A model generated the notes under the pieces. It had not been told where the DNA came from. It saw only the letters and a program-made list of their open reading frames with translations, and searched no databases. Of a stretch of 64,000 bases of DNA, positions 2,335 through 14,835 are shown one piece after another; the stretch's first letter is position 1; the number at the start of each line of letters is the position of its first letter. The stretch covers positions 22,196 to 86,195 of the forward strand of contig NZ_JAJBQV010000009.1 in NCBI RefSeq assembly GCF_020539865.1, written 5' to 3'. Position numbers and translations under genes: made by a program. This stretch comes from Megasphaera elsdenii (GTDB taxonomy: Bacteria; Bacillota; Negativicutes; Veillonellales; Megasphaeraceae).

Positions 2335-3456
2335 ATGAATAGCAATATGATCGGCCTCATCAATATGCGTGAAGACCATCCTTTGCAGGAAATCAACGAC
2401 AAGCGCCCGTTATCGACGCTGCCCATCGGCGGTAAGTACCGTCTCATCGACTTCACGCTTTCCAATATGGTCAACGCCGGCATTGAAAACGTCGGCCTCC
2501 TGCTCTCGAGCCAGTCCCGGTCGGTACTGGACCACATCCGGTCCGGTAAGGAATGGGGCCTGGCCCACAAGGGCGACGGCTTGTTCTACCTGCCAGAAGA
2601 ACGGGCGGATATCGAACATCCCGTAGAAGGGGACATCGCCGCGTATTATAAGAACCTGATCTTCATCAACCGAGCCAACAAGCGTTACGCCCTCTTGTCG
2701 GGCTGCGATATGGTCCAGAACATCGACTACGATGAAGTCCTCCATTTCCATCGCCATCACAATGCCGATGTCACTCTCATCTACCAGCAGCAGAAATACG
2801 ACTTCGACCGCGAAGGCTATATCCTGACCATTGACGACGCCTGCAAGGACCGGGTCCTGGCCATCGAAGCCAAGCCGGAAGTCAAAGCCGGGGACAACTT
2901 ATACCAGCGAGGAATCCTTATTGACTGCGATGTATTCCAGCATTGCATACGCCGGGCTTATGCCCAGGGATACACCCACTTTATTACGGATGTACTCCAG
3001 CGGAATGTAGACCGCCTGCGGATTTTCGGCTATAATTATCAGGGATATGCAAAACGGATTGATTCAGTTCATTCCTACTTCCAGGTCAACATGGACCTGC
3101 GTGACAGCCGCATCTGGCATGAACTGCTCCTGAAAGACGAGGACCATCGCATCTATACCAAGATCAAGGATGAAGCGCCGGCCAAGTACATGGAAGAATC
3201 GCATGTCACCAATTCTCTCGTAGCCAATGGCTGCATCATCGAAGGCCGCGTAGAGAATTCGATTCTTTTCCGCCGCGTCAAGGTCGGAAAGAATGCTGTC
3301 ATTCGCAACAGCATCATCATGCAGCACTCGGTCGTCGGCGATGACGCCCAGCTCGATTACGTCGTATGCGACAAGAATACGGTCATTCAGCCGGAAGCCG
3401 TGTTGAGCGGCAGCCACGACAACCCGTTGTGCATTGGTAAACGTTCAGTCCGCTGA
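2335..3456 (+). CDS. glgD: GlgD, regulatory partner of ADP-glucose pyrophosphorylase
   Basis: 373 residues, homologous to GlgC over its length (PIGGKYRLIDFTLSNMVNAG near residues 27-46) but with the N-terminal GGxGxRL phosphate-binding loop replaced by a short divergent sequence. That loss fits the known non-catalytic GlgD that modulates GlgC in Firmicutes. The C-terminus keeps the beta-helix repeats (for example NSILFRRVKVGKNAVIRNS). It starts 2 bases after glgC stops, so translation is coupled. Its end lies 28 bases before the preferred glgP start. Confidence 0.93.
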   Translation: MNSNMIGLINMREDHPLQEINDKRPLSTLPIGGKYRLIDFTLSNMVNAGIENVGLLLSSQSRSVLDHIRSGKEWGLAHKGDGLFYLPEERADIEHPVEGDIAAYYKNLIFINRANKRYALLSGCDMVQNIDYDEVLHFHRHHNADVTLIYQQQKYDFDREGYILTIDDACKDRVLAIEAKPEVKAGDNLYQRGILIDCDVFQHCIRRAYAQGYTHFITDVLQRNVDRLRIFGYNYQGYAKRIDSVHSYFQVNMDLRDSRIWHELLLKDEDHRIYTKIKDEAPAKYMEESHVTNSLVANGCIIEGRVENSILFRRVKVGKNAVIRNSIIMQHSVVGDDAQLDYVVCDKNTVIQPEAVLSGSHDNPLCIGKRSVR

Positions 3457-3484
3457 ACGCGACTACAAAGGGGTTAGAGACAAT

Positions 3485-5914
3485 ATGAAAAAATGGCAGG
3501 ATAAGGAAGAGTTCAAAAAGTTATTTACCGAGAAAGCCCACATTTTGTGGGAAAAAGATCTGCGGGACATGACTTTGAATGAAGTCTATCAGACCATCGC
3601 CTACATGATCCGCGATCTGGTAAGTGAAGATTGGATCCGTACGAATGAAATCTATGCTGAACAGAAGGTCAAGCAAGTCTATTATTTCTCCATCGAATTC
3701 CTCATCGGCCGCCTTTTGGAATCGAATCTTCTGGGCATCGACATGGACGACATCTGTCGCCAGGGCCTGGAAGATTTGGGCTGGGATCTGGATAAGGTCA
3801 TCCCAGCCGAACGCGATCCGGGTCTGGGGAATGGGGGACTGGGCCGGCTGGCTGCCTGCTTCATCGACTCCCTGGCAGCTTTGCAGCTGCCGGGCCATGG
3901 CAACAGCATCCGCTATCAGTACGGCTTGTTCAACCAGCGCATTGTCGACAACCAGCAGGTAGAACTGCCCGATAACTGGCTGGTCAACGGCCATCCTTGG
4001 GAAGTCAAGAAAGTCGACAAGGCCGTCTATGTCCGCTTCGGCGGCAATGCCTACATGCGCCCTGATGAAGATGGCAACTTGGAATGTGTTCACGAAAAGT
4101 ATTCGCCTGTCCGCGCCGTCCCGTATGATGTGCCCATCATCGGCTATCATAACAATACGGTCAATACGCTGCGCCTGTGGCGGGCAGAATACTCGCGGGA
4201 ACAGCTCTATCAGGAACTGTCCCTCGGCGACCGGCGCCGGGCCTTCCGCTATAAGGACAGTGTCCAGCAGATTTCTCGTTTCCTCTATCCTGACGACAGC
4301 AATGAAGAAGGCCGCCGCCTGCGCCTGATGCAGGAATACTTCTTCGTATCAGCCGGCCTCCAGAGTATCGTCCGCCATTATAAGAAAAAATATCACGAAA
4401 GTATCTATAAATTCGACCGCTATGTGGCCATTCACATCAACGACACCCATCCGGCCCTGGTCATCCCGGAACTGATGCGCATCCTCATGGATGAAGAAGG
4501 CGTGTCCTGGGATGCGGCTTGGAATATCACCGTCCGCACCGTGGCCTATACGAACCACACGATCCTGCCGGAAGCCATGGAAAAATGGTCCATCCCGATG
4601 TTCAAGGAACTGCTGCCGCGCATCTACCTCATCGTCGAAGAAATTAACAACCGCTGGCTCAAAGAAGTCCGCAGCCTCTATCCTGGCGATGAATCGAGGG
4701 CCCGCGACGTCGCCGTCCTCTGGGATGGCCAGGTCCACATGGCCCATCTGGCTGTCCTCGGCAGCCACAGCGTCAACGGCGTCGCCGAAATCCATTCGCA
4801 GATTCTCAAGGATTCGACGCTGCACCAATTCTATACGTGCTTCCCGCACCGTTTCTCCAACAAGACTAATGGCATTTCCCATCGCCGTTGGCTCATCGAA
4901 GCCAACCCACAGCTGGCTTCGCTCATCGACGAAGCCATCGGTGATAGCTGGCGCCAGACGCCGTCGAAGCTCCAGGACCTCATGCCTTTCGCCGATGACC
5001 CGTCCTTCCAGGAACAGCTGACGCGGGTCAAGACGGAACGCAAGGAAATCCTGGCCCGTTATATCCGCGACCGTTATGATACGGGCGTGCGGACCGATTC
5101 GATTTTCGACATCCAGATCAAGCGCATCCACTTGTATAAGCGCCAGACCTTGAACATCCTTCATATCCTGCACTTGTATTACCTCTTGAAGGATAACCCG
5201 AAACTCAAGATTACGCCGCGGACCTTCCTCTTTGGCGGCAAGGCCGCTGCCGGTTATGGCGAAGCGAAGGAAACAATCCGCCTCATCAACGTTGTCGCCC
5301 ATATGGTTAATTCCGACCGTCAGGTCAGCAAGCAGATGAAGGTCCTGTTCCTGGAAAATTACAACGTATCCTTAGGGCAGCTCCTCTTCCCGGCAGCTGA
5401 TGTGAGCGAACAGATTTCGACAGCCGGTAAGGAAGCGTCGGGCACGGGCAATATGAAATTCATGATGAATGGCGCCATTACCTTAGGGACCATGGACGGG
5501 GCTAACGTCGAAATCCACCGCAAGGTCGGCGACGAAAACTGTGTCATCTTCGGACTGCGGGCTCATGAAGTCATGGACTACTACATCCACGGCGGCTACT
5601 CGTCGTGGCAGATGTACAGCAGCGACGCTGCCATCCGCCGCCTCATGGACTCCCTCGTCGACGGCTCCATTGGCGGGGAACACTTCGGCATGCTCTACTC
5701 GGCCTTCCTCGATAAGAATGACGAATACTTCGTCCTCAAGGATTTCCAGTCCTACTGCCAGGCCCAGCAGGAAATCGCCAAGCGCTACGGCGACCATAGG
5801 AAATGGTGTCATTCGAGCGTCGTCAATATTGCCCAGTCCGGCTATTTCTCCAGTGACCGGACGATCCAGCAATACGCTGACGACATTTGGCGCATCAAGC
5901 CGGTCAAACACTAA
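3485..5914 (+). CDS. glgP: Glycogen/maltodextrin phosphorylase
   Basis: Phosphorolyses alpha-1,4-glucan to glucose-1-P using pyridoxal phosphate. The PLP site is EASGTGNMKFMMNGA, with the Schiff-base lysine at K658, followed by GTMDGANVEI. I chose ATG 3485 (809 residues) over an in-frame start at 3434 that overlaps glgD, because AAAGGGG lies upstream of 3485 and the N-terminus MKKWQDKEEFKKLF then matches the family. It sits between synthesis genes, so one transcript makes and mobilises glycogen. GlgP and MalP preference cannot be separated by eye; the locus favours glycogen. Confidence 0.95.
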   Translation: MKKWQDKEEFKKLFTEKAHILWEKDLRDMTLNEVYQTIAYMIRDLVSEDWIRTNEIYAEQKVKQVYYFSIEFLIGRLLESNLLGIDMDDICRQGLEDLGWDLDKVIPAERDPGLGNGGLGRLAACFIDSLAALQLPGHGNSIRYQYGLFNQRIVDNQQVELPDNWLVNGHPWEVKKVDKAVYVRFGGNAYMRPDEDGNLECVHEKYSPVRAVPYDVPIIGYHNNTVNTLRLWRAEYSREQLYQELSLGDRRRAFRYKDSVQQISRFLYPDDSNEEGRRLRLMQEYFFVSAGLQSIVRHYKKKYHESIYKFDRYVAIHINDTHPALVIPELMRILMDEEGVSWDAAWNITVRTVAYTNHTILPEAMEKWSIPMFKELLPRIYLIVEEINNRWLKEVRSLYPGDESRARDVAVLWDGQVHMAHLAVLGSHSVNGVAEIHSQILKDSTLHQFYTCFPHRFSNKTNGISHRRWLIEANPQLASLIDEAIGDSWRQTPSKLQDLMPFADDPSFQEQLTRVKTERKEILARYIRDRYDTGVRTDSIFDIQIKRIHLYKRQTLNILHILHLYYLLKDNPKLKITPRTFLFGGKAAAGYGEAKETIRLINVVAHMVNSDRQVSKQMKVLFLENYNVSLGQLLFPAADVSEQISTAGKEASGTGNMKFMMNGAITLGTMDGANVEIHRKVGDENCVIFGLRAHEVMDYYIHGGYSSWQMYSSDAAIRRLMDSLVDGSIGGEHFGMLYSAFLDKNDEYFVLKDFQSYCQAQQEIAKRYGDHRKWCHSSVVNIAQSGYFSSDRTIQQYADDIWRIKPVKH

Positions 5915-5936: not shown

Positions 5937-8045
5937 ATGAAACTCAGTGCAATCGACGAGTACAGTACCTTCTTGTATCATCAAGGTACGAACTACGCCA
6001 GTTATTGTCTGTTCGGGGCCCATTTCACGGTCCTGCGCCGCAAGCCTTGTGTGCGCTTTGCCGTCTGGGCGCCTCATGCGCAGCAGGTCAGCGTCGTCGG
6101 TGATTTCAATCACTGGGACGCCGATGCCAACCCCATGGAGCGGAGCCGCTTCGGCAACGGCATTTGGGTTACACATATTGTCGGCCTCCAGGAAGGGGAC
6201 ATTTACAAGTACGCCATTACGACGGCGTCAGGGGAACATATCTTAAAGAGCGATCCCTACGCCTTCTGGTCGGAAGTCCGTCCCCATACAGCATCGAAAT
6301 TGACTAAGCTCCACTACACGTGGCGCGACAAGAAGTGGATGGACAGCCGCAGTGCCTACGATTCGTACCGCAAGCCCATGCTGACTTATGAAGTCCATCT
6401 CGGTTCCTGGCGCCGCGGCGAAGACGGGGAAATGCTGTCGTACCGCGCCATCGCGCCGCAGCTTGTCGATTATGTCAAACAGATGAATTATACCCACATC
6501 GAGCTCATGCCGCTGTGCGAATATCCCTTTGATGGTTCCTGGGGCTACCAGGGGACGGGGTATTTCTCGGCGACCAGCCGCTATGGCAAGCCGGAAGATT
6601 TGATGTATCTCGTCGACCTGTGCCATCGCAAGGGTATCGGCGTCATCCTCGACTGGGTACCGGGCCATTTTTGCCGCGACGCTCACGGCTTGCGCCATTT
6701 TGACGGTGAACCGTGCTATGAATCGGGCAACCCCATGCTGGCCGAAAATAAGGAATGGGACACGATGAATTTCGACTACGGCCGGACAGAAGTCCAGTCC
6801 TTCCTTATTTCCAGTGCCCTCTTCTGGCTCAGCCAGTTCCACATCGACGGCTTGCGCATCGACGCCGTCGCCAATATGCTCTACCTCGATTACGGCCATG
6901 CTGACGGCGACTGGCAGCCCAATAAATACGGCGGCCGAGAAAACCTGGAAGCTATCGACTTCCTGCGTCATCTCAACACAGCCGTCTTTAAGGAATATCC
7001 CCAGGCCTTGATGATTGCCGAAGAATCGTCGGCTTGGCCCTTGGTGACCAAACCCGTCGATGTCGGCGGCTTGGGATTCAATTACAAATGGAACATGGGC
7101 TGGATGAACGATATGCTCCGCTACATGTCGCTGGACCCGCTGTTCCGCAAGGACAATCACAACTTGATTACCTTTTCGTTATGTTATGCTTTTTCCGAGA
7201 ATTTTATCCTACCTTTGTCGCATGATGAAGTCGTCCACGGCAAACATTCTCTTCTGGACAAGATGCCTGGCGACTACTGGCAGAAATTCGCCGGCCTGCG
7301 CGCCTTCTACGGCTACTGGATGTCCCATCCGGGCAAGAAGCTCCTGTTCATGGGCAGTGAATTTGGCCAGTTCATCGAATGGAAGTACGATGACAGCCTG
7401 GACTGGCACCTCCTCAAGTATCCCATGCACCAGGCCATGCACGACTACGTGCGCCGCTTGAATACATACTATGTGGACCATCCGGAATTCTGGGAAGAAG
7501 ACTGCGACTGGTCGGGGTTCTCGTGGATCAGCTGCGACGACTGCGACAACAGCGTCATCGCCTTTTACCGCACAGGCAAGGACGAATCGGATATGACCGT
7601 CGTCGTCTGCAATTTCACGCCTGTCGTCCGCCATGCGTATCGCTTTGGCGTTCCCCGGAAAGGGACGTATGTCGAAGTCTTCAACAGCGATGCGACGGCC
7701 TTTGGCGGATCCAACGTCCTCAACGAAGGGGAATTCGAAGCCCAAGAGGTGCCTATGCATGGTATGGACCAGTCCCTGGAATTGACCCTGCCGCCGCTGG
7801 CTACGATTTACTTGCAACTCACAGGGGAGACTAAAAAAAAAGCAGTGACGAAACGGCGGCGCCGCCGGACAGTGAAAGCCGATAAGGTTGCCGACGGGAC
7901 CGTCAAGAAAACGGCCAAGGCGCCGGGAAAGAAGGCAACGACCCGTGGAAAAGGGAAAGCCAAAACGGCAGCGTCTGCGAAAAAGACTGCTGCAACGAGA
8001 AAGAGAAGAACTGGGCGTCCTGCCAAAATGGAAGCAGACGCCTGA
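5937..8045 (+). CDS. glgB: 1,4-alpha-glucan branching enzyme with a histone-like basic tail
   Basis: Introduces alpha-1,6 branches into glycogen. An N-terminal CBM48-like module (VRFAVWAPHAQQVSVVGDFN) precedes a GH13 domain with nucleophile D309 (GLRIDAVAN), acid/base E362 (IAEESSAWP) and D430 (LSHDEVVHGKHS). The normal fold ends near residue 631. Residues 632-702 are a 71-residue extension of almost only Lys, Arg, Ala and Thr, resembling histone H1 tails and ending in RKRRTGRPAK, loosely like an AT-hook. The extension begins at a run of nine A (7833-7841); one base lost there gives an immediate TGA after KKKQ. AGGAGGATAAGAT precedes the ATG. Confidence 0.95.
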   Translation: MKLSAIDEYSTFLYHQGTNYASYCLFGAHFTVLRRKPCVRFAVWAPHAQQVSVVGDFNHWDADANPMERSRFGNGIWVTHIVGLQEGDIYKYAITTASGEHILKSDPYAFWSEVRPHTASKLTKLHYTWRDKKWMDSRSAYDSYRKPMLTYEVHLGSWRRGEDGEMLSYRAIAPQLVDYVKQMNYTHIELMPLCEYPFDGSWGYQGTGYFSATSRYGKPEDLMYLVDLCHRKGIGVILDWVPGHFCRDAHGLRHFDGEPCYESGNPMLAENKEWDTMNFDYGRTEVQSFLISSALFWLSQFHIDGLRIDAVANMLYLDYGHADGDWQPNKYGGRENLEAIDFLRHLNTAVFKEYPQALMIAEESSAWPLVTKPVDVGGLGFNYKWNMGWMNDMLRYMSLDPLFRKDNHNLITFSLCYAFSENFILPLSHDEVVHGKHSLLDKMPGDYWQKFAGLRAFYGYWMSHPGKKLLFMGSEFGQFIEWKYDDSLDWHLLKYPMHQAMHDYVRRLNTYYVDHPEFWEEDCDWSGFSWISCDDCDNSVIAFYRTGKDESDMTVVVCNFTPVVRHAYRFGVPRKGTYVEVFNSDATAFGGSNVLNEGEFEAQEVPMHGMDQSLELTLPPLATIYLQLTGETKKKAVTKRRRRRTVKADKVADGTVKKTAKAPGKKATTRGKGKAKTAASAKKTAATRKRRTGRPAKMEADA
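7830..8042 (+). other. Segment encoding the Lys/Arg/Ala-rich GlgB tail, with an A9 slippage-prone run
   Basis: Encodes GlgB residues 632-702. The A9 run is at 7833-7841, at the junction with the catalytic part. Reading with 8 A gives AAG CAG TGA (stop); with 10 A the frame closes after about 15 codons. Only A9 (or A9 plus or minus 3) yields the basic tail. The tail holds a run of five Arg plus repeated KKTA/KKAT-like motifs. Its exact placement suggests an added module or a molecular switch. Confidence 0.8.
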
Positions 8046-8076
8046 TTCGGTACATAGGGAAAGTGGGGGACATACG

Positions 8077-9513
8077 ATGAATGTATTATTTGTGGCCTCA
8101 GAAGCAGTGCCATTTATTAAAACAGGCGGGCTGGCCGATGTCATGGGGGCACTGCCCAAGGCCTTAGCCAAGAAGGGCATGGACGTCCGCTTGGTCATTC
8201 CGAAATACAGCCGCATCGCAGAAGAAGTGAAGAATCAGATGAAAGAAGTGACGACAGGCATCGTGAACCTGGCCTGGCGCCAGCTCTACTACGGCGTCGA
8301 AGAAATCAAACGCGACGGCGTGACCGTCTATTTCATCGACAACGAATGGTATTTCAAGCGCGATGGCCTTTACGGCTACGGCGATGACGACGAACGCTTT
8401 GCCTACTTCTGCCGCGCCGTCCTGACCATGCTGTCCAAGATTGGCTTCAAGCCGGATATCATCCACTGCAACGACTGGCATACAGGCCTCATGGGGGTCT
8501 TCCTCAAAGAAGATTTCTGGCATGATGATTTCTATAAGGGCATCAAAGTAATCTATACCATTCACAACTTGAAGTACCAAGGCATTTATCCGCTGTCCAT
8601 CATGCGCGACATCATCGGCTTGCCGCAGGAACTCTTCGACAAGGGCAACTTAGAATGCGACGGCTGCGTGAATTACATGAAATCGGGCATGGTCTACGCC
8701 GATTACATTACGACGGTCAGCCCGTCGTATGCTCAGGAAATCACCTATCCTTACTTTGGTGAAGGTCTGGATGGCTATATCCGTGATAACCGGGAAAAAG
8801 TGACGGGCATCATCAACGGCCTCGACGTTGACGTCTATAATCCAGAAACGGATCCGTATATTAAGCGACAGTATTCTGTCGCCAACGCCCGGGCCGGCAA
8901 GCGGGAAAATAAAGATGCCCTGCGGGCCGAACTGGGCCTGCGCATCAAGCGCGGCGTCCCCATGATCGCCATGGTCACGCGCCTCGTCGAAGACAAGGGC
9001 CTGGACCTGGTCACGCGCATCATGGATGAACTCGTCGATGACGATGTCCAGCTGGTTCTGGTTGGGACCGGCGATGCAGGCTATGAAAATGCCTTCCGCG
9101 AACTGGCCCGCCGTCATCCGACGAAGGTATCGGCGAATATTACCTTCAATGAAGCCTTGGCCCATAAGGTCTATGCCGCTGCCGACATGTTCCTCATGCC
9201 GTCGCGGTACGAACCGTGCGGCCTGAGCCAGCTCATCGCCTTGCGCTACGGCGCCATCCCCATTGTCCGCGAAACGGGCGGCCTCAAGGATACGGTCCAT
9301 CCCTTCGACAAATACAGCAAACAAGGCAATGGCCTGACCTTCCCGAACTTCAATGCCCATGAACTCCTGTTCACGACGAAACGGGCTATGGGCTACTATG
9401 AGGACACGGCCTTGTGGGATATCCTCGTCCGCAACGCCATGACTAGCGACTATAGCTGGAACCGCTCGGCTGAAGCGTATCTGAATCTGTACAAAAAAGT
9501 ATTACAACAGTAA
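8077..9513 (+). CDS. glgA: Glycogen synthase (ADP-glucose)
   Basis: Elongates alpha-1,4-glucan from ADP-glucose (GT5). The N-terminus MNVLFVASEAVPFIKTGGLA is diagnostic: KTGGLA binds ADP-glucose. The C-terminal GT-B half carries PSRYEPCGLSQL, including the conserved Glu. From ATG 8077 the protein is 478 residues, the family length; the same frame is open upstream to 7888, but that stretch overlaps the glgB tail and is not homologous. A GGGGGA site precedes the ATG by a few bases. It lies 31 bases after glgB and closes the core glg operon; hairpins follow it. Confidence 0.96.
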   Translation: MNVLFVASEAVPFIKTGGLADVMGALPKALAKKGMDVRLVIPKYSRIAEEVKNQMKEVTTGIVNLAWRQLYYGVEEIKRDGVTVYFIDNEWYFKRDGLYGYGDDDERFAYFCRAVLTMLSKIGFKPDIIHCNDWHTGLMGVFLKEDFWHDDFYKGIKVIYTIHNLKYQGIYPLSIMRDIIGLPQELFDKGNLECDGCVNYMKSGMVYADYITTVSPSYAQEITYPYFGEGLDGYIRDNREKVTGIINGLDVDVYNPETDPYIKRQYSVANARAGKRENKDALRAELGLRIKRGVPMIAMVTRLVEDKGLDLVTRIMDELVDDDVQLVLVGTGDAGYENAFRELARRHPTKVSANITFNEALAHKVYAAADMFLMPSRYEPCGLSQLIALRYGAIPIVRETGGLKDTVHPFDKYSKQGNGLTFPNFNAHELLFTTKRAMGYYEDTALWDILVRNAMTSDYSWNRSAEAYLNLYKKVLQQ

Positions 9514-9633: not shown

Positions 9634-12600
9634 ATGGACTTACGATTGTACCACAACTCTCATGAATTCTATTACCGCTCGTCTTTTGGTGCCGTTCCAT
9701 CTGGGAGCCGCCTCATTCTGCGCCTCCGCGCCAGTGGCAGCGAGGTCCAAAATTGCCGGGCCCGCATCCGCCTGTGGCAGAGCAATGTCGGCGAATCCTT
9801 TGTGCCCATGACCTATGAAGACGGCATTTTTACAGGTATTGTCACCATGCCGCCCAAGGGCTGTCTGGTCTGGTATTACTTCATCGTCGACAATGGCCGC
9901 AGGACCGTCTATTACGGCAACAACTACGACCGCCTCGGCGGGGAAGGCGCTAAATACCAAGATGTGCCGCCGGCCTATCAGGTCACGGTCTACGATAAGG
10001 ACGCCCATACGCCGGACTGGTTCAAACATGCCATCGTCTATCAGATTTTCCCGGACCGCTTCCGCCACGGGATCCATACGACAGGCCGCCTGTACGGTAA
10101 GAAAGGGGCCGTCATCCATAGCGACTGGGACGACGTGCCTTATTACTGCAAGCGCGAAGGCAAGGGAGACATCGTCTATTACGACTTTTTCGGCGGCAAC
10201 CTCGCCGGTATCCGGGAAAAGCTGCCCTATCTCAAGGAATTGGGCATTACGGCGATTTACCTCAACCCGATTTTTGAAAGCTCCAGCAACCACCGTTACG
10301 GTACGGCCGATTATTTCCGTGTCGATCCCATGCTGGGGACGAATGAAGAATTTGCCCAATTCTGTCAGGCTGCCAAAGAAGCAGGCATCCATATCATCCT
10401 CGACGGCGTCTTCAGCCATACCGGGGCCGACAGCATTTACTTCAACCGCTTCGGCAACTATCCCGGCGTCGGCGCCTATCAGTCGAAGGAATCGCCGTAT
10501 TATGAATGGTACCGTTTCAAGCAGTATCCAGACGACTATGAATCGTGGTGGGGCGTATCGGATTTGCCTGACGTCGAAGAGACGACGCCGTCGTACATGG
10601 ATTTCATCATCAACAGCGAAGATAGTGTCCTCAAGTACTGGCTGAACGAAGGCATCAGCGGCTGGCGCCTGGACGTCGTCGACGAATTGCCCGTACCCTT
10701 CCTGCGTCAGTTCTACCATACGCTGAAAGAGGAAAAGCCCGACGCCATCCTCATCGGCGAAGTCTGGGAAGATGCGTCGAACAAGGTCAGTTACAGCGAG
10801 CAGCGGGAGTACCTCTGCGGCTATGACATCGACAGTGCCATGAATTACGCCCAACGGGCCTTGATGCTGGACTTCATGACCGGTGCCAAAGATGCGCGGC
10901 GCATGAATGCTGAATTGACGCGGCTCATTGAAAATTATCCGCCAGAGAATTTCTATGCCATGCTCAATCTCATCAGCAGCCACGATATCGAACGTATCCT
11001 GACCGTCCTCACTCAGGCTGGCGGCACCGACGTGGCGACAGCCGAAGAAACGGGCAAGAAGCGCTTGAAATTGCTGACGGCTTGGCAGATGACTATGCCC
11101 GGTGCGCCGTGCATCTATTACGGTGATGAAGTCGGCGTCACTGGCGGCAAGGACCCTGACAACCGCCGGACCTATCCCTGGGGCCATGAGGACCTGGATC
11201 TGTTGGCCTGGACCAAGGCCTTGACGCGGCTGCGCACAGCACACGATGCGTTACAGACGGGCCGTTTCATCCCGATCTATGCCGATGGCGACGTCTTCGC
11301 CTTTGCCCGGGTCATCGAAGGGGGACGGGATGTCTTCGGCAAGCCTGCTGAAGACGGTTTCTTCATCATCGCCATGAACCGCAATCCGTCGGCCTTGCAG
11401 ACAATCAGCATCTATACAGACGGCTTGGCTTACGGAAAATTGACCAATGCCCTCCATCCGCGCATGACGCCGGTCACGACGGTGAACAGCCGCTTCACTC
11501 TGACCTTGCCGCCTCTGAAAGTAGTCATCCTCCAGGGCAAAGAGGCCGGGACCAAGCGGGCTGGTGTCCTCCTGCACCCGACGTCCCTGCCGGCAGCCTG
11601 TGGCAACGGCGTCTTGGGGCCGGCGGCATACCGCTTCGTCGATTTCCTCAAAGCCGCAGGTCAACGGGTCTGGCAGATCCTGCCCCTGACGCCGCCCCTC
11701 ATGGGCGACTCGCCCTATTTGTCGGAATCGGCTTTTGCCGGCAACGAAGCTCTCATTTCCCTGGAAATCCTGCGCGACTGGGGCTGGCTGCGGCAGGAAA
11801 CCCTCGATGATTTCCTGGCCCAAGGGAAAAAGACGGCGTCCTGGCACAGTCTGGCCGCCTATAAGGCCAAGCTCCTCTGGAATATGTCCCATGATCCGGA
11901 ACTGACCATTCCTTGGGAACCGTTTCGGGCTTTCTGTGAAAAGAACGCCTATTGGCTCGACGATTACGCCCTGTTCCGGGCTATCCGCGATTTTTTTGGC
12001 GGCCGCTGCTGGACGGAATGGCCGGAAGATATCCGCCATCATAGCCAGGAAGCCTTGGCCCGATATGGCAAGGAACTGGCCGGTGCCGTATCGCATGTCA
12101 AATTCATGCAGTACATCTTCAGCCGCCAATGGCACGATGTCCGGGCCTATGCCGCTGAGAATGGTGTGTCTGTCCTAGGCGATGTGCCTATGTTCGTCGC
12201 CCATAACAGTGCCGACTGCTGGGCCCATCAGGACCAGTTCGACCTCGACGATATGGGGAACCCGTCAGCTGTCGCCGGCGTCCCGCCCGACTATTTCAGT
12301 GCCGATGGCCAGCTCTGGGGCAATCCGCTCTACGATTACCAGGCCATGGCCAAGGACAACTACCAGTGGTGGACTGATCGCTTCCGCCGCATGATGGACC
12401 TTGTCGACGAAATCCGCGTCGACCACTTCCGCGGCTTTGCTGCCTATTGGGCCGTGCCGGCTGGTTCGGAAACGGCCAAGAACGGTGCCTGGAAAGAAGG
12501 GCCCGGCCTCGACCTCTTCCAGGCAGTCTATCAGAAAATCGGCAGGCTCCGCCTCGTCGCGGAAGACCTGGGCGTCATTACGGATGACGTCTGTACGCTG

Positions 12601-13032
12601 AAAGATGCGCTGCACCTGCCAGGGATGAAAGTCATCCAGTTCCACCTCAAGGACCGGGCCGCCGGCCGCCTGGACTTCGATACGGAACCAGACTGTGTCG
12701 CTTATACCGGGACCCATGACAACAATACGATCTGTGGCTGGTATGAAGAGGACCTGACACCGAGCCAGCAGCTCCACGTTCGCCAGATGCTGGGCTTGTC
12801 TGACGAAGCGGCACCGCAGGAAATCGCCGCGGCCCTCATCGCCTATACGTGCCGCCGCCGGGCTGAAACGGTCATCATCCCTATGCAGGATCTCCTGGCC
12901 CTGCCGTCGTCGGGACGCATGAATACACCAGGCGTAGCGGAAGGTAATTGGCACTGGCAGCTCCAAGATGGGCAGCTGACCTTCGATATCGCCCGCTGGC
13001 TGGCCAAAGTATGCCGCGAAAGCGGACGTTGA
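9634..13032 (+). CDS. Fusion enzyme: GH13 alpha-glucan hydrolase plus GH77 4-alpha-glucanotransferase
   Basis: 1132 residues with two complete enzymes. Residues about 1-125 are a beta-sandwich N-domain as in neopullulanase/cyclomaltodextrinase. Residues about 130-620 are GH13 with nucleophile D347 (GWRLDVVDE), acid/base E376 (IGEVWED) and D451 (SSHDIER). Residues about 638-1130 are an amylomaltase (MalQ) starting RAGVLLHPTSLP, with D930 (RVDHFRGF), E977 (AEDLGVIT) and D1029 (GTHDNNT). All six catalytic residues are present, so both halves may be active. It would trim and disproportionate maltodextrin beside GlgP. AAAGGAGCG precedes the ATG. The GH13 part could prefer pullulan, dextrins or cyclodextrins; I cannot tell which. 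Confidence 0.93.
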   Translation: MDLRLYHNSHEFYYRSSFGAVPSGSRLILRLRASGSEVQNCRARIRLWQSNVGESFVPMTYEDGIFTGIVTMPPKGCLVWYYFIVDNGRRTVYYGNNYDRLGGEGAKYQDVPPAYQVTVYDKDAHTPDWFKHAIVYQIFPDRFRHGIHTTGRLYGKKGAVIHSDWDDVPYYCKREGKGDIVYYDFFGGNLAGIREKLPYLKELGITAIYLNPIFESSSNHRYGTADYFRVDPMLGTNEEFAQFCQAAKEAGIHIILDGVFSHTGADSIYFNRFGNYPGVGAYQSKESPYYEWYRFKQYPDDYESWWGVSDLPDVEETTPSYMDFIINSEDSVLKYWLNEGISGWRLDVVDELPVPFLRQFYHTLKEEKPDAILIGEVWEDASNKVSYSEQREYLCGYDIDSAMNYAQRALMLDFMTGAKDARRMNAELTRLIENYPPENFYAMLNLISSHDIERILTVLTQAGGTDVATAEETGKKRLKLLTAWQMTMPGAPCIYYGDEVGVTGGKDPDNRRTYPWGHEDLDLLAWTKALTRLRTAHDALQTGRFIPIYADGDVFAFARVIEGGRDVFGKPAEDGFFIIAMNRNPSALQTISIYTDGLAYGKLTNALHPRMTPVTTVNSRFTLTLPPLKVVILQGKEAGTKRAGVLLHPTSLPAACGNGVLGPAAYRFVDFLKAAGQRVWQILPLTPPLMGDSPYLSESAFAGNEALISLEILRDWGWLRQETLDDFLAQGKKTASWHSLAAYKAKLLWNMSHDPELTIPWEPFRAFCEKNAYWLDDYALFRAIRDFFGGRCWTEWPEDIRHHSQEALARYGKELAGAVSHVKFMQYIFSRQWHDVRAYAAENGVSVLGDVPMFVAHNSADCWAHQDQFDLDDMGNPSAVAGVPPDYFSADGQLWGNPLYDYQAMAKDNYQWWTDRFRRMMDLVDEIRVDHFRGFAAYWAVPAGSETAKNGAWKEGPGLDLFQAVYQKIGRLRLVAEDLGVITDDVCTLKDALHLPGMKVIQFHLKDRAAGRLDFDTEPDCVAYTGTHDNNTICGWYEEDLTPSQQLHVRQMLGLSDEAAPQEIAAALIAYTCRRRAETVIIPMQDLLALPSSGRMNTPGVAEGNWHWQLQDGQLTFDIARWLAKVCRESGR

Positions 13033-13173: not shown

Positions 13174-14835
13174 GTGTATCTTACTTATATGCGTATCCAA
13201 AATTACCGGAATTTGCAAGATGTCGAAATGATTTTTCACAAAAGGGCCAACTATATCGTCGGAGAAAACGCCATCGGCAAGAGCGGCCTGTTACGCCTCA
13301 TTTCCTATATGAGCGATGGCCGCAACGTCGAAGAAGACGATTATGCCGACGTGACCCGGCCCATTATCATCACGATGGATCTGAACTTGCTGCAGAGTGA
13401 ACAGGAATATTTCGCCGATACGCCAGACGAACGGCGCCAGAGCGTGCGCATCCGCATGGAAATGCGCGTCAGCGATATGTATCCCCATCTCTACGATGAC
13501 CACAGTGGTGAAGAACTGCCGCTGGAACTTATCCGCCGCCTGCGCTACGTGCCCTATTCGGCGACGATGCCGGAAGAACAACGCGTGCCGCCGCGCATTT
13601 ACCGGGCTTTGGAACAGAAACTGTCGCAGTGGAGCGAAGCTCATTGGGATGGCCTGTCTGATGAAGCCAAGTCCTTCATTCACCACGAAGTCGCTGTCGG
13701 TAACATGGACTCGTCGTATTTCATCAATATCTTCCTCTTATCCCGTCTTTTATGCCGCATGGACCGGCCCAGGGCGGATAACATGAAATTTATTTCCCTG
13801 GCCGCCTTGTGCATTATCACCCAGGTCTACCTAATGTCCATCAGCTGCGCTGTGCCTTTGGAACACAATGTCATCGTCGACGCAGAAGGCAAGCGTTACC
13901 TGCCCTTGGTCATTTCTATCGACGAACCGGAAATGCACCTCCATCCTTATATGCAGCGGTCGGTCCTGCACTATTATCAGCAGCTTCTCAACAATGAAGA
14001 CCCTCAGTTCTGCCGGCTCCTCAAGGATCTGTTCGGCCTCGACGGCCTGCGGGGCCAGTTGTTCATCGTTACCCATTCGACAGATTCCCTCATCGACGAC
14101 TACCGCCACATCATCCGTCTGTACCGCAATAAACAGGGCCTGGTCAAAGCAGCTTGCGGTGCCGGTTTCCATTTCAGTGAAGAAATTGAGAAGCACTTGA
14201 TCATGCACTTCCCGGAAGTCAAAGAAGCTTTGTATTCGCGGAGCGTCCTCATCGTCGAAGGGGAAACGGAATACGGTTGCTTCCAGCATTTTGGCAAGAC
14301 CTTGGATCTGCCTTTCGATTATTACGGCATTTGCCTCATCAATGCCCGCGGCGAAAGTTCCATTTCCAAGATCAAGAAGCTCCTGGAATACTTCAAGATT
14401 CCCGTCGTCGCCCTTTACGATGCCGACGTCAAGGGCAGCCATAAGAACGAACGGGGCGTCTACTTCACCGATGAGATTTGCTTTGAAATGGACCTGGCTA
14501 AGACCATGATCGACCACGGCCAGCGCCGCGAACTGGACCGCATCATCAATACGGCCAGTGGCGAACATGCCCGGGCGACGATGGATATGATTAAGAAGGC
14601 TTGCCGCAAATTGGACGTCAACTTCCACGATTATCCGGCCCGCCTTTTGTGGCACGTCAACCCGCGCAATAAGAAAGCCTTATATATCTATTATTTCGCC
14701 TGGCTCTACAGCAACAAAGGCGTCATCCTCGGCCGCCTCATCGGCCAGTCCCTGAAAAAAGAAGACATCCCGCCATCCTTCGTCCGCGCCATCGAAGCCG
14801 CCGGCCAGCTGGCCAAGGTAACCAAAGCCGTATAA
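13174..14835 (+). CDS. OLD-family ATP-dependent endonuclease (AAA ATPase plus TOPRIM)
   Basis: 553 residues. The N-terminal ABC/RecF-like ATPase has its P-loop at residues 30-37 (GENAIGKS) and Walker B at VISIDEPEMHLHP (D250, E251), then a VTHSTDSL switch. The C-terminal TOPRIM nuclease has the acidic residue E362 in VLIVEGETEYG and the DAD pair D416/D418. This order is that of class 1 OLD proteins, some of which restrict phage. No UvrD/GajB-like gene or reverse transcriptase adjoins it, so Gabija and retron types are unlikely. Start GTG 13174 with AAAAGGA about 9 bases upstream. It is bounded by a terminator on one side and a stop-codon hairpin on the other, so it is a single-gene unit. Confidence 0.85.
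   Translation: MYLTYMRIQNYRNLQDVEMIFHKRANYIVGENAIGKSGLLRLISYMSDGRNVEEDDYADVTRPIIITMDLNLLQSEQEYFADTPDERRQSVRIRMEMRVSDMYPHLYDDHSGEELPLELIRRLRYVPYSATMPEEQRVPPRIYRALEQKLSQWSEAHWDGLSDEAKSFIHHEVAVGNMDSSYFINIFLLSRLLCRMDRPRADNMKFISLAALCIITQVYLMSISCAVPLEHNVIVDAEGKRYLPLVISIDEPEMHLHPYMQRSVLHYYQQLLNNEDPQFCRLLKDLFGLDGLRGQLFIVTHSTDSLIDDYRHIIRLYRNKQGLVKAACGAGFHFSEEIEKHLIMHFPEVKEALYSRSVLIVEGETEYGCFQHFGKTLDLPFDYYGICLINARGESSISKIKKLLEYFKIPVVALYDADVKGSHKNERGVYFTDEICFEMDLAKTMIDHGQRRELDRIINTASGEHARATMDMIKKACRKLDVNFHDYPARLLWHVNPRNKKALYIYYFAWLYSNKGVILGRLIGQSLKKEDIPPSFVRAIEAAGQLAKVTKAV

Follow-up and report, generated by a model that had tools for sequence, protein, structure and literature searches.

A recurrent basic tail on the glycogen branching enzyme of Megasphaera elsdenii: a possible nucleic-acid tether with a candidate slippage site at its junction

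Why should an enzyme that branches glycogen end in a long, strongly basic tail? The question is raised by glgB in a 64,000-nucleotide stretch of Megasphaera elsdenii DNA, which was analysed as a whole and is called the window here. The closest relatives of the window are Megasphaera, and M. elsdenii itself is among the glycogen storers in the table of one review (PMC10395257). The gene (5937..8045, + strand, 702 aa) belongs to a glycogen operon; it is preceded by glgC (1172-2332, +), glgD (2335-3456, +) and glgP (3434-5914, +), and is followed by glgA (8077..9513, +), which is untailed in the window; these four neighbours were assigned by NCBIfam. Pfam places CBM48, GH13 and the C-terminal beta domain in residues 1-628 of GlgB, with the last domain ending at residue 628, and the NCBIfam GlgB equivalog NF008967 spans residues 8-631 and scores 937 bits (cut-off 577). 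Residues D309, E362 and D430, which we take to be the catalytic residues, are invariant across all 17 rows of the GlgB alignment. The protein thus has the three domains, a curated-model score above the cut-off and the D/E/D residues of a GlgB, and the claim of the initial annotation that a complete and catalytically intact enzyme precedes the tail is borne out. In the closest genome compared (G008), GlgB is 97% identical to that of the window and the tail is nearly the same.

The tail comprises residues 629-702 (74 residues; 7821..8042, +), is rich in Lys, Arg, Ala and Thr, and has a net charge of +23. The initial annotation had delimited it as residues 632-702, which do correspond to 7830-8042 in the confirmed open reading frame, and had called it almost pure Lys/Arg/Ala/Thr. 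This wording is generous but fair, because these residues make up 54 of 71 (18 K, 15 A, 11 T, and 10 R), with only 3 D and 1 E as acidic residues. The run of five Arg is present, as is RKRRTGRPAK (8001..8030, +), a degenerate AT-hook-like motif near the tail end; MEADA comes after the latter. Basic ends of this kind are uncommon: a crude ORF survey of 1.2 of the 2.48 Mb of G008 gave 837 ORFs of at least 150 aa, of which 4 have a net charge of at least +12 in their last 50 residues. These four are GlgB, an RNase R-like RNB protein, an AdoMet_dc-domain ORF, and a PS_pyruv_trans ORF. The RNB protein (L169:16141-18530, - strand) has an extremely Lys-rich C-terminal tail, its last 50 residues carrying a net charge of +23.

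Between the window and the corresponding locus of G008 (L081), dN/dS in the tail frame is 0.34, a value from small counts, six each of synonymous and non-synonymous. The two remaining frames give 1.70 and 0.96, and the GlgB core gives 0.038. The tail frame has the lowest value of the three, and the tail therefore looks translated, though loosely constrained. From these sequence comparisons, there is good reason to consider the tail of the window GlgB real and beyond chance. Its disorder is only suggested by a structure model that is weak as a whole (mean pLDDT 58.9; tail 25-31). A protein search with residues 625-702 alone gave three matches among 1875 candidates (P0001, P0037, and P0121, the last a 436-aa protein with a GlgB C-terminal domain), and none of these candidates was an unrelated protein bearing the tail of the window. 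The tail DNA had no match when compared with plasmids.

The initial annotation had held that known GlgB proteins end near the canonical fold and had proposed a search of GlgB homologues for basic tails. With a basic tail defined as at least 30 aa of net charge at least +8, such tails are present in 45 of the 120 database matches listed (of 7998 scored), 44 of them within the best 60, and in many Selenomonadales too; in this group, GlgB often extends past the fold, contrary to that expectation. The case that was named as refuting the initial annotation, relatives that all lack a basic tail, does not apply. The tails among the listed matches vary in sequence and length. In a sample of 143 distinct GlgB cores weighted toward close relatives, 79 are tailed, and a FastTree phylogeny implies that the tail state changed 16 times or more. 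Across the relatives, the sequence of the tail has diverged and its charge has been kept, and repeat-like expansions of the tail are found in L051 and L104. In the M. massiliensis family (17 genomes, 12 with GlgB), six GlgB proteins are tailed, five end in a short non-basic stretch, and the remaining one carries a frameshift.

GlgB is present in 166 of 189 Selenomonadales genomes. The 30 best-scoring Selenomonadales loci, a ranking that favours tailed ones, include 28 with a tail, with net charges up to +39, and tails are present in 31 of 40 further loci picked for long open frames or inner stops. Many lower-ranked GlgB genes of the same order have open frames of 630-660 aa, without space for a tail. 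Among organism-named loci 29 of 80 are tailed, and among the best 30 GlgB loci of Clostridia three are tailed and 27 tailless. The tail is dispensable, since tailless GlgB is common in the Megasphaera family (5 of 12), in lower-ranked Selenomonadales and in Clostridia. These surveys give good grounds to state that basic tails on glycogen enzymes recur in Megasphaera and in its relatives from the gut and mouth. Some individual GlgB sequences stand apart. In L148 (G029), the tail seems to switch frame midway relative to its relatives and remains basic, and entries P0037-P0040 and P0077 combine foreign N-terminal parts with Megasphaera-like ends and are probably assembly chimeras.

The same type of tail is found on glycogen synthase in a sister order, the Acidaminococcales. 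GlgA is present in 26 of 63 genomes of this order and is full-length in 25; 18 of the 25 are tailed, containing a 40-residue stretch of net charge at least +10, L241, on a short contig, reaches +6, and six have none. The extension is 68-222 aa long with H1-like segments (loci L004, L005, L006, L050, and L229-L244), and PKKRGRKPG lies near the end of 9 of the 18 tailed proteins. The net charge of the whole extension ranges from -7 to +20 and is often near neutral because the basic part commonly follows an acidic stretch. GlgB is likewise tailed in 13 of the 18 genomes with tailed GlgA, and its tail is weak or absent in the other five (L230, L232, L233, L236, and L237). In the loci sampled first, 4 of 42 GlgA proteins are tailed, and all four belong to Acidaminococcales. 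That two enzymes of the same polymer bear one type of tail is best explained if the tail acts at the glycogen particle, as we infer. A poly-A run at the junction is absent from the Acidaminococcales GlgA tails in the loci checked, where the longest A-run is of seven and lies away from the junction. One locus placed in the order of the Acidaminococcales loci, L228 (G219), has an untailed GlgA that is 79% identical to that of the window; gene transfer, binning or taxonomy may account for this resemblance.

AT-hooks are specific for DNA, and motifs resembling them are enriched in the tails. Among tails with K+R of at least 15%, RGRP occurs in 11 of 86 against 0.11 expected from residue shuffles, and after the thinning of near-copies in 7 of 71 against 0.10 expected, with a maximum of 3 in 1000 shuffles. 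The tail of the window has only the degenerate KRRTGRPAK. The Pfam AT_hook profile (PF02178, cut-off 17.4 bits) is not reported for the window GlgB; the best tail reaches 10.9 bits (P0005), and none exceeds the cut-off across six genomes. As this profile stays below its cut-off where tested, likeness to AT-hooks is claimed and not membership. The HC2 profile (PF07382, cut-off 40 bits) has no match in the window and gives 25.5 bits for the L239 GlgA tail and 14.4 bits for the P0034 GlgB tail. The composition is like that of chlamydial HC2 and of eukaryotic histone H1 tails; homology is not implied by HC2 scores below the cut-off. Three GlgB tails, those of L143 (G032), L019, and L112, end in KPKRRGRPPKKK, and the tails of L143 and L019 have two RGRP motifs each, with a net charge in L143 of merely +4.

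A further feature, which the initial annotation had missed, lies at the junction of enzyme and tail (ACA GGG GAG ACT AAA AAA AAA GCA GTG ACG). The nine A's encoding KKK (7833..7841, +) are the sole run of at least eight A's on the plus strand of the window and form a candidate slippage site. On loss of one A, a TGA would be reached at 7846..7848 (+) and the product would end in KKKQ; on gain of one A, a TAA would be reached at 7883..7885 (+) and the product would end in KKKSSDETAAPPDSESR. In the window alone, neither the A9 run (shuffle P 0.25) nor the distance to the stop after a slip (P 0.20) is unusual. An A9 is also present at the junction in the tailed Megasphaera loci L001, L081, L086, and L088, and a junction A-run is missing from the tailed L089 and L090. 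In a clade of Selenomonas and Centipeda, the first Lys cluster carries A10 in 7 of 13 genes and A9, A8, and A7 in one each.

The distribution of such runs was examined across relatives, with one genome for each species, by tests run on the same data that suggested the pattern. Runs of at least nine A's occur in 16 of 79 tails against 8.3 expected from synonymous shuffles within the tail (p 0.002) and 6.3 expected from whole-gene codon usage (0 of 500), and runs of at least eight show no excess (21 against 20.4 expected). The position of the runs is more distinctive. In 19 of 21 tails, the longest run of at least eight A's belongs to the first KK cluster, against 3.2 expected. A run of at least nine occurs in 14 of 24 first KKK clusters and in 0 of 34 later ones (Fisher 2e-7, uncorrected for relatedness); in the later KKK clusters of these tails, AAA makes up 43 of the 104 codons. 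The 14 first-cluster tracts come from five Megasphaera, one Anaerovibrio, and eight Selenomonas/Centipeda and are not independent. For comparison, the GlgB cores contain four runs of at least eight A's in 313 kb, and the ORFs of G008 five runs of at least nine in 1.08 Mb. In 17 of the 21 genes with a tract, both one-base slips stop within 21 codons; the exceptions, with long read-through or later stops, are L015, L025, L028, and L136. The early stop in the shifted frames has a combined P of 1.8e-5 over 12 hand-picked genes. The position of the A9 tract suggests an optional tail, and these patterns in the DNA are suggestive of a slippage site.

One close relative carries the shorter form in its gene. 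L082, which has 17 differences from the window over 628 core residues, has A8 at the junction, and its product ends in TGSVKKKQ. Its tail frame remains open over the full length, though out of frame, with a dN/dS of 0.29 to the window, and the A8 includes A AAA AAG, the same heptamer as in E. coli dnaX. A filter for out-of-frame tail remnants in short-tailed loci flagged ten, of which L082 alone is convincing. RNA hairpins downstream of the junction, considered as a frameshift stimulator, are no better than in shuffled sequences (z -0.29 and -0.08). An upstream Shine-Dalgarno-like AGGG(G)AG is found in the window and L082 and was dropped because L081, L001, and L086 lack it. The open frame of glgA (7888-9513, +) runs back through most of the glgB tail, and in this frame the tail DNA likewise encodes a basic, Arg-rich peptide. 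A GlgB-GlgA frameshift fusion through this frame is not supported, since the loss of one A stops at 7846-7848, ahead of it.

Our preferred reading, a tentative one that we hold at somewhat below even, is that the tail tethers glycogen enzymes to nucleic acid, probably the nucleoid, and that dnaX-like slippage yields these enzymes both with and without it. The tail would be a disordered polycation through which a glycogen-synthesising enzyme could bind nucleic acid, most likely the nucleoid, and growing glycogen particles would in this way be kept on or near the DNA. At the A9 tract, some mRNAs or ribosomes would shift frame and stop at once, giving tailless GlgB, so that a single glgB gene could yield tailed and tailless subunits in the manner of the tau and gamma products of dnaX. 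Slippage of RNA polymerase at A9 would be the simplest route, and ribosomal slippage would have the same outcome. Tailed GlgB is predicted to bind nucleic acid and tailless GlgB is not. The initial annotation had offered binding to DNA or RNA, polyphosphate or ribosomes, or anchoring of glycogen granules to the nucleoid; nucleic-acid or nucleoid anchoring is favoured among these by the H1-like composition, the AT-hook-like motifs and the GlgA tail, and the binding itself stays predicted. A wider form of the proposal, possible but doubtful, is that in Negativicutes optional H1/AT-hook-like tails on GlgB, or on GlgA in Acidaminococcales, fasten glycogen to the chromosome, with a conserved poly-A tract at the junction setting the ratio of DNA-bound to free enzyme in some lineages.

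Tethers between storage polymers and the nucleoid have been described for other stores. PhaF of Pseudomonas putida and PhaM of Cupriavidus necator tether PHA/PHB granules to the nucleoid (PMC13052382). Like GlgB, they are proteins of a storage polymer with a histone-like C-terminal part, which in PhaF and PhaM binds DNA non-specifically. In contrast to GlgB, they are granule coat proteins on PHA and not a branching enzyme, and DNA binding is established for PhaF and PhaM only. We know of no slippage site in PhaF or PhaM. The window GlgB has the basic C-terminal tail of such a tether by composition, with disorder only suggested. In Pseudomonas aeruginosa, AlgP acts in the spacing of polyphosphate granules, and removal of its tail is described as altering their number (PMC9239181). 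AlgP and GlgB share an H1-like C-terminal tail, disordered in AlgP; however, AlgP is a dedicated protein of net charge +55 with KPAA repeats and a Lys/Ala/Pro-rich tail, whereas the Lys/Ala/Thr-rich tail of GlgB is on an enzyme.

The slippage part of the proposal is modelled on dnaX. Thermus dnaX undergoes transcriptional slippage at nine A's, by which half of the product is shortened (PMC1088944), and E. coli dnaX has a ribosomal frameshift at A AAA AAG (PMC3711429). The Thermus paper also describes selection against such runs, visible from nine nucleotides in a large share of genomes, and cautions that a truncated slippage product makes function hard to predict by comparison (PMC1088944). 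The genes of glgB and dnaX share the in-frame A9 or A AAA AAG and a quick stop predicted after a slip, the distance of which is unremarkable in the window alone. On the contrary, dnaX yields longer and shorter products whereas the two products of glgB are predicted, glgB is metabolic, and its junction has no downstream stem-loop better than shuffles.

Several other readings of the tail and the tract have to be weighed. The tail may bind another polyanion, such as RNA or ribosomes, polyphosphate or an anionic membrane, instead of the nucleoid, and two isoforms would still be possible. Composition by itself does not distinguish polyanions, AlgP, which has an H1-like tail, associates with polyphosphate granules (PMC9239181), and the strongly basic nucleic-acid enzyme found besides GlgB in G008 is RNase R-like and acts on RNA. 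The RGRP motifs point to DNA, yet that of the window is degenerate, and we regard this reading as rather unlikely. The tail could also work inside the glycogen machinery through acidic surfaces of partners, the polymer phase, or a change in solubility and oligomeric state, without any part for nucleic acid. Its presence on two enzymes of one operon would fit such a role, which leaves the AT-hook-like motifs unexplained and appears very improbable.

A more sceptical reading holds that the tail is a tolerated low-complexity extension that changes by replication slippage, the A-run being a mutational relic or an unregulated phase-variation hot spot. The changes of tail state, the repeat-like expansions in L051 and L104, the difference between A9 and A8 among close relatives, and a tail dN/dS of 0.29-0.34 against 0.04 in the core all agree with it. 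Against it stand the retention of charge despite the turnover of sequence, the recurrence of the tail type on GlgA, the enrichment of RGRP, and the restriction of long A-runs to the first KKK cluster even though later clusters also use AAA; on balance it seems unlikely. As for L082, its A8 could be a homopolymer error of sequencing or assembly. The source is a single draft contig, and the entries with the same ending (P0038-P0040 and P0077) resemble chimeras at their N-termini; however, the TGSVKKKQ end recurs in these separately listed entries, and an error is judged improbable.

If the preferred reading of a nucleic-acid tether is true, it would extend to glycogen the nucleoid tethers known for PHA and polyphosphate stores, and the inheritance of a store at cell division would become testable through the removal of one tail. 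A slippage site that decides the presence of a nucleic-acid-binding tail on a metabolic enzyme would also lengthen the short list of cellular genes, dnaX apart, in which such sites are known. In E. coli, glycogen condensates gather at the old pole and displace the nucleoid (PMC12706056). They resemble the proposal in that a glycogen polymer phase shapes the position of the nucleoid, and differ in that the glycogen lies away from the nucleoid whereas a tether predicts contact. Tethering would therefore be a distinct arrangement. Searches by title and start of abstract, with few subscription papers covered, found no glycogen-nucleoid tether, and no literature was found on a branching enzyme with a lysine-rich C-terminal extension or a disordered C-terminal tail, or on glgB with transcriptional slippage. 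Literature on branching enzyme with AT-hook was unrelated, as judged by title only, and titles on bacterial glycogen synthase with histone H1-like concerned only Chlamydia development or histone H1. The main text of the GeneTack survey (PMC3711429) has no glgB, the searched portion of the text of a 2016 recoding review does not mention glycogen, and the word glycogen is absent from a 2025 review of organelle positioning.

The surroundings of the glycogen genes in the window also contain two further ORFs. After glgA, an ORF of 1132 aa (9634-13032, +) has an alpha-amylase/debranching-like part fused to a 4-alpha-glucanotransferase. An ATPase-like ORF (13174-14835, +), flanked by the glycogen operon and a topoisomerase III gene, has weak, below-cut-off resemblance to a retron Eco8 effector, RecF, and PtuA, and is possibly related to defence.
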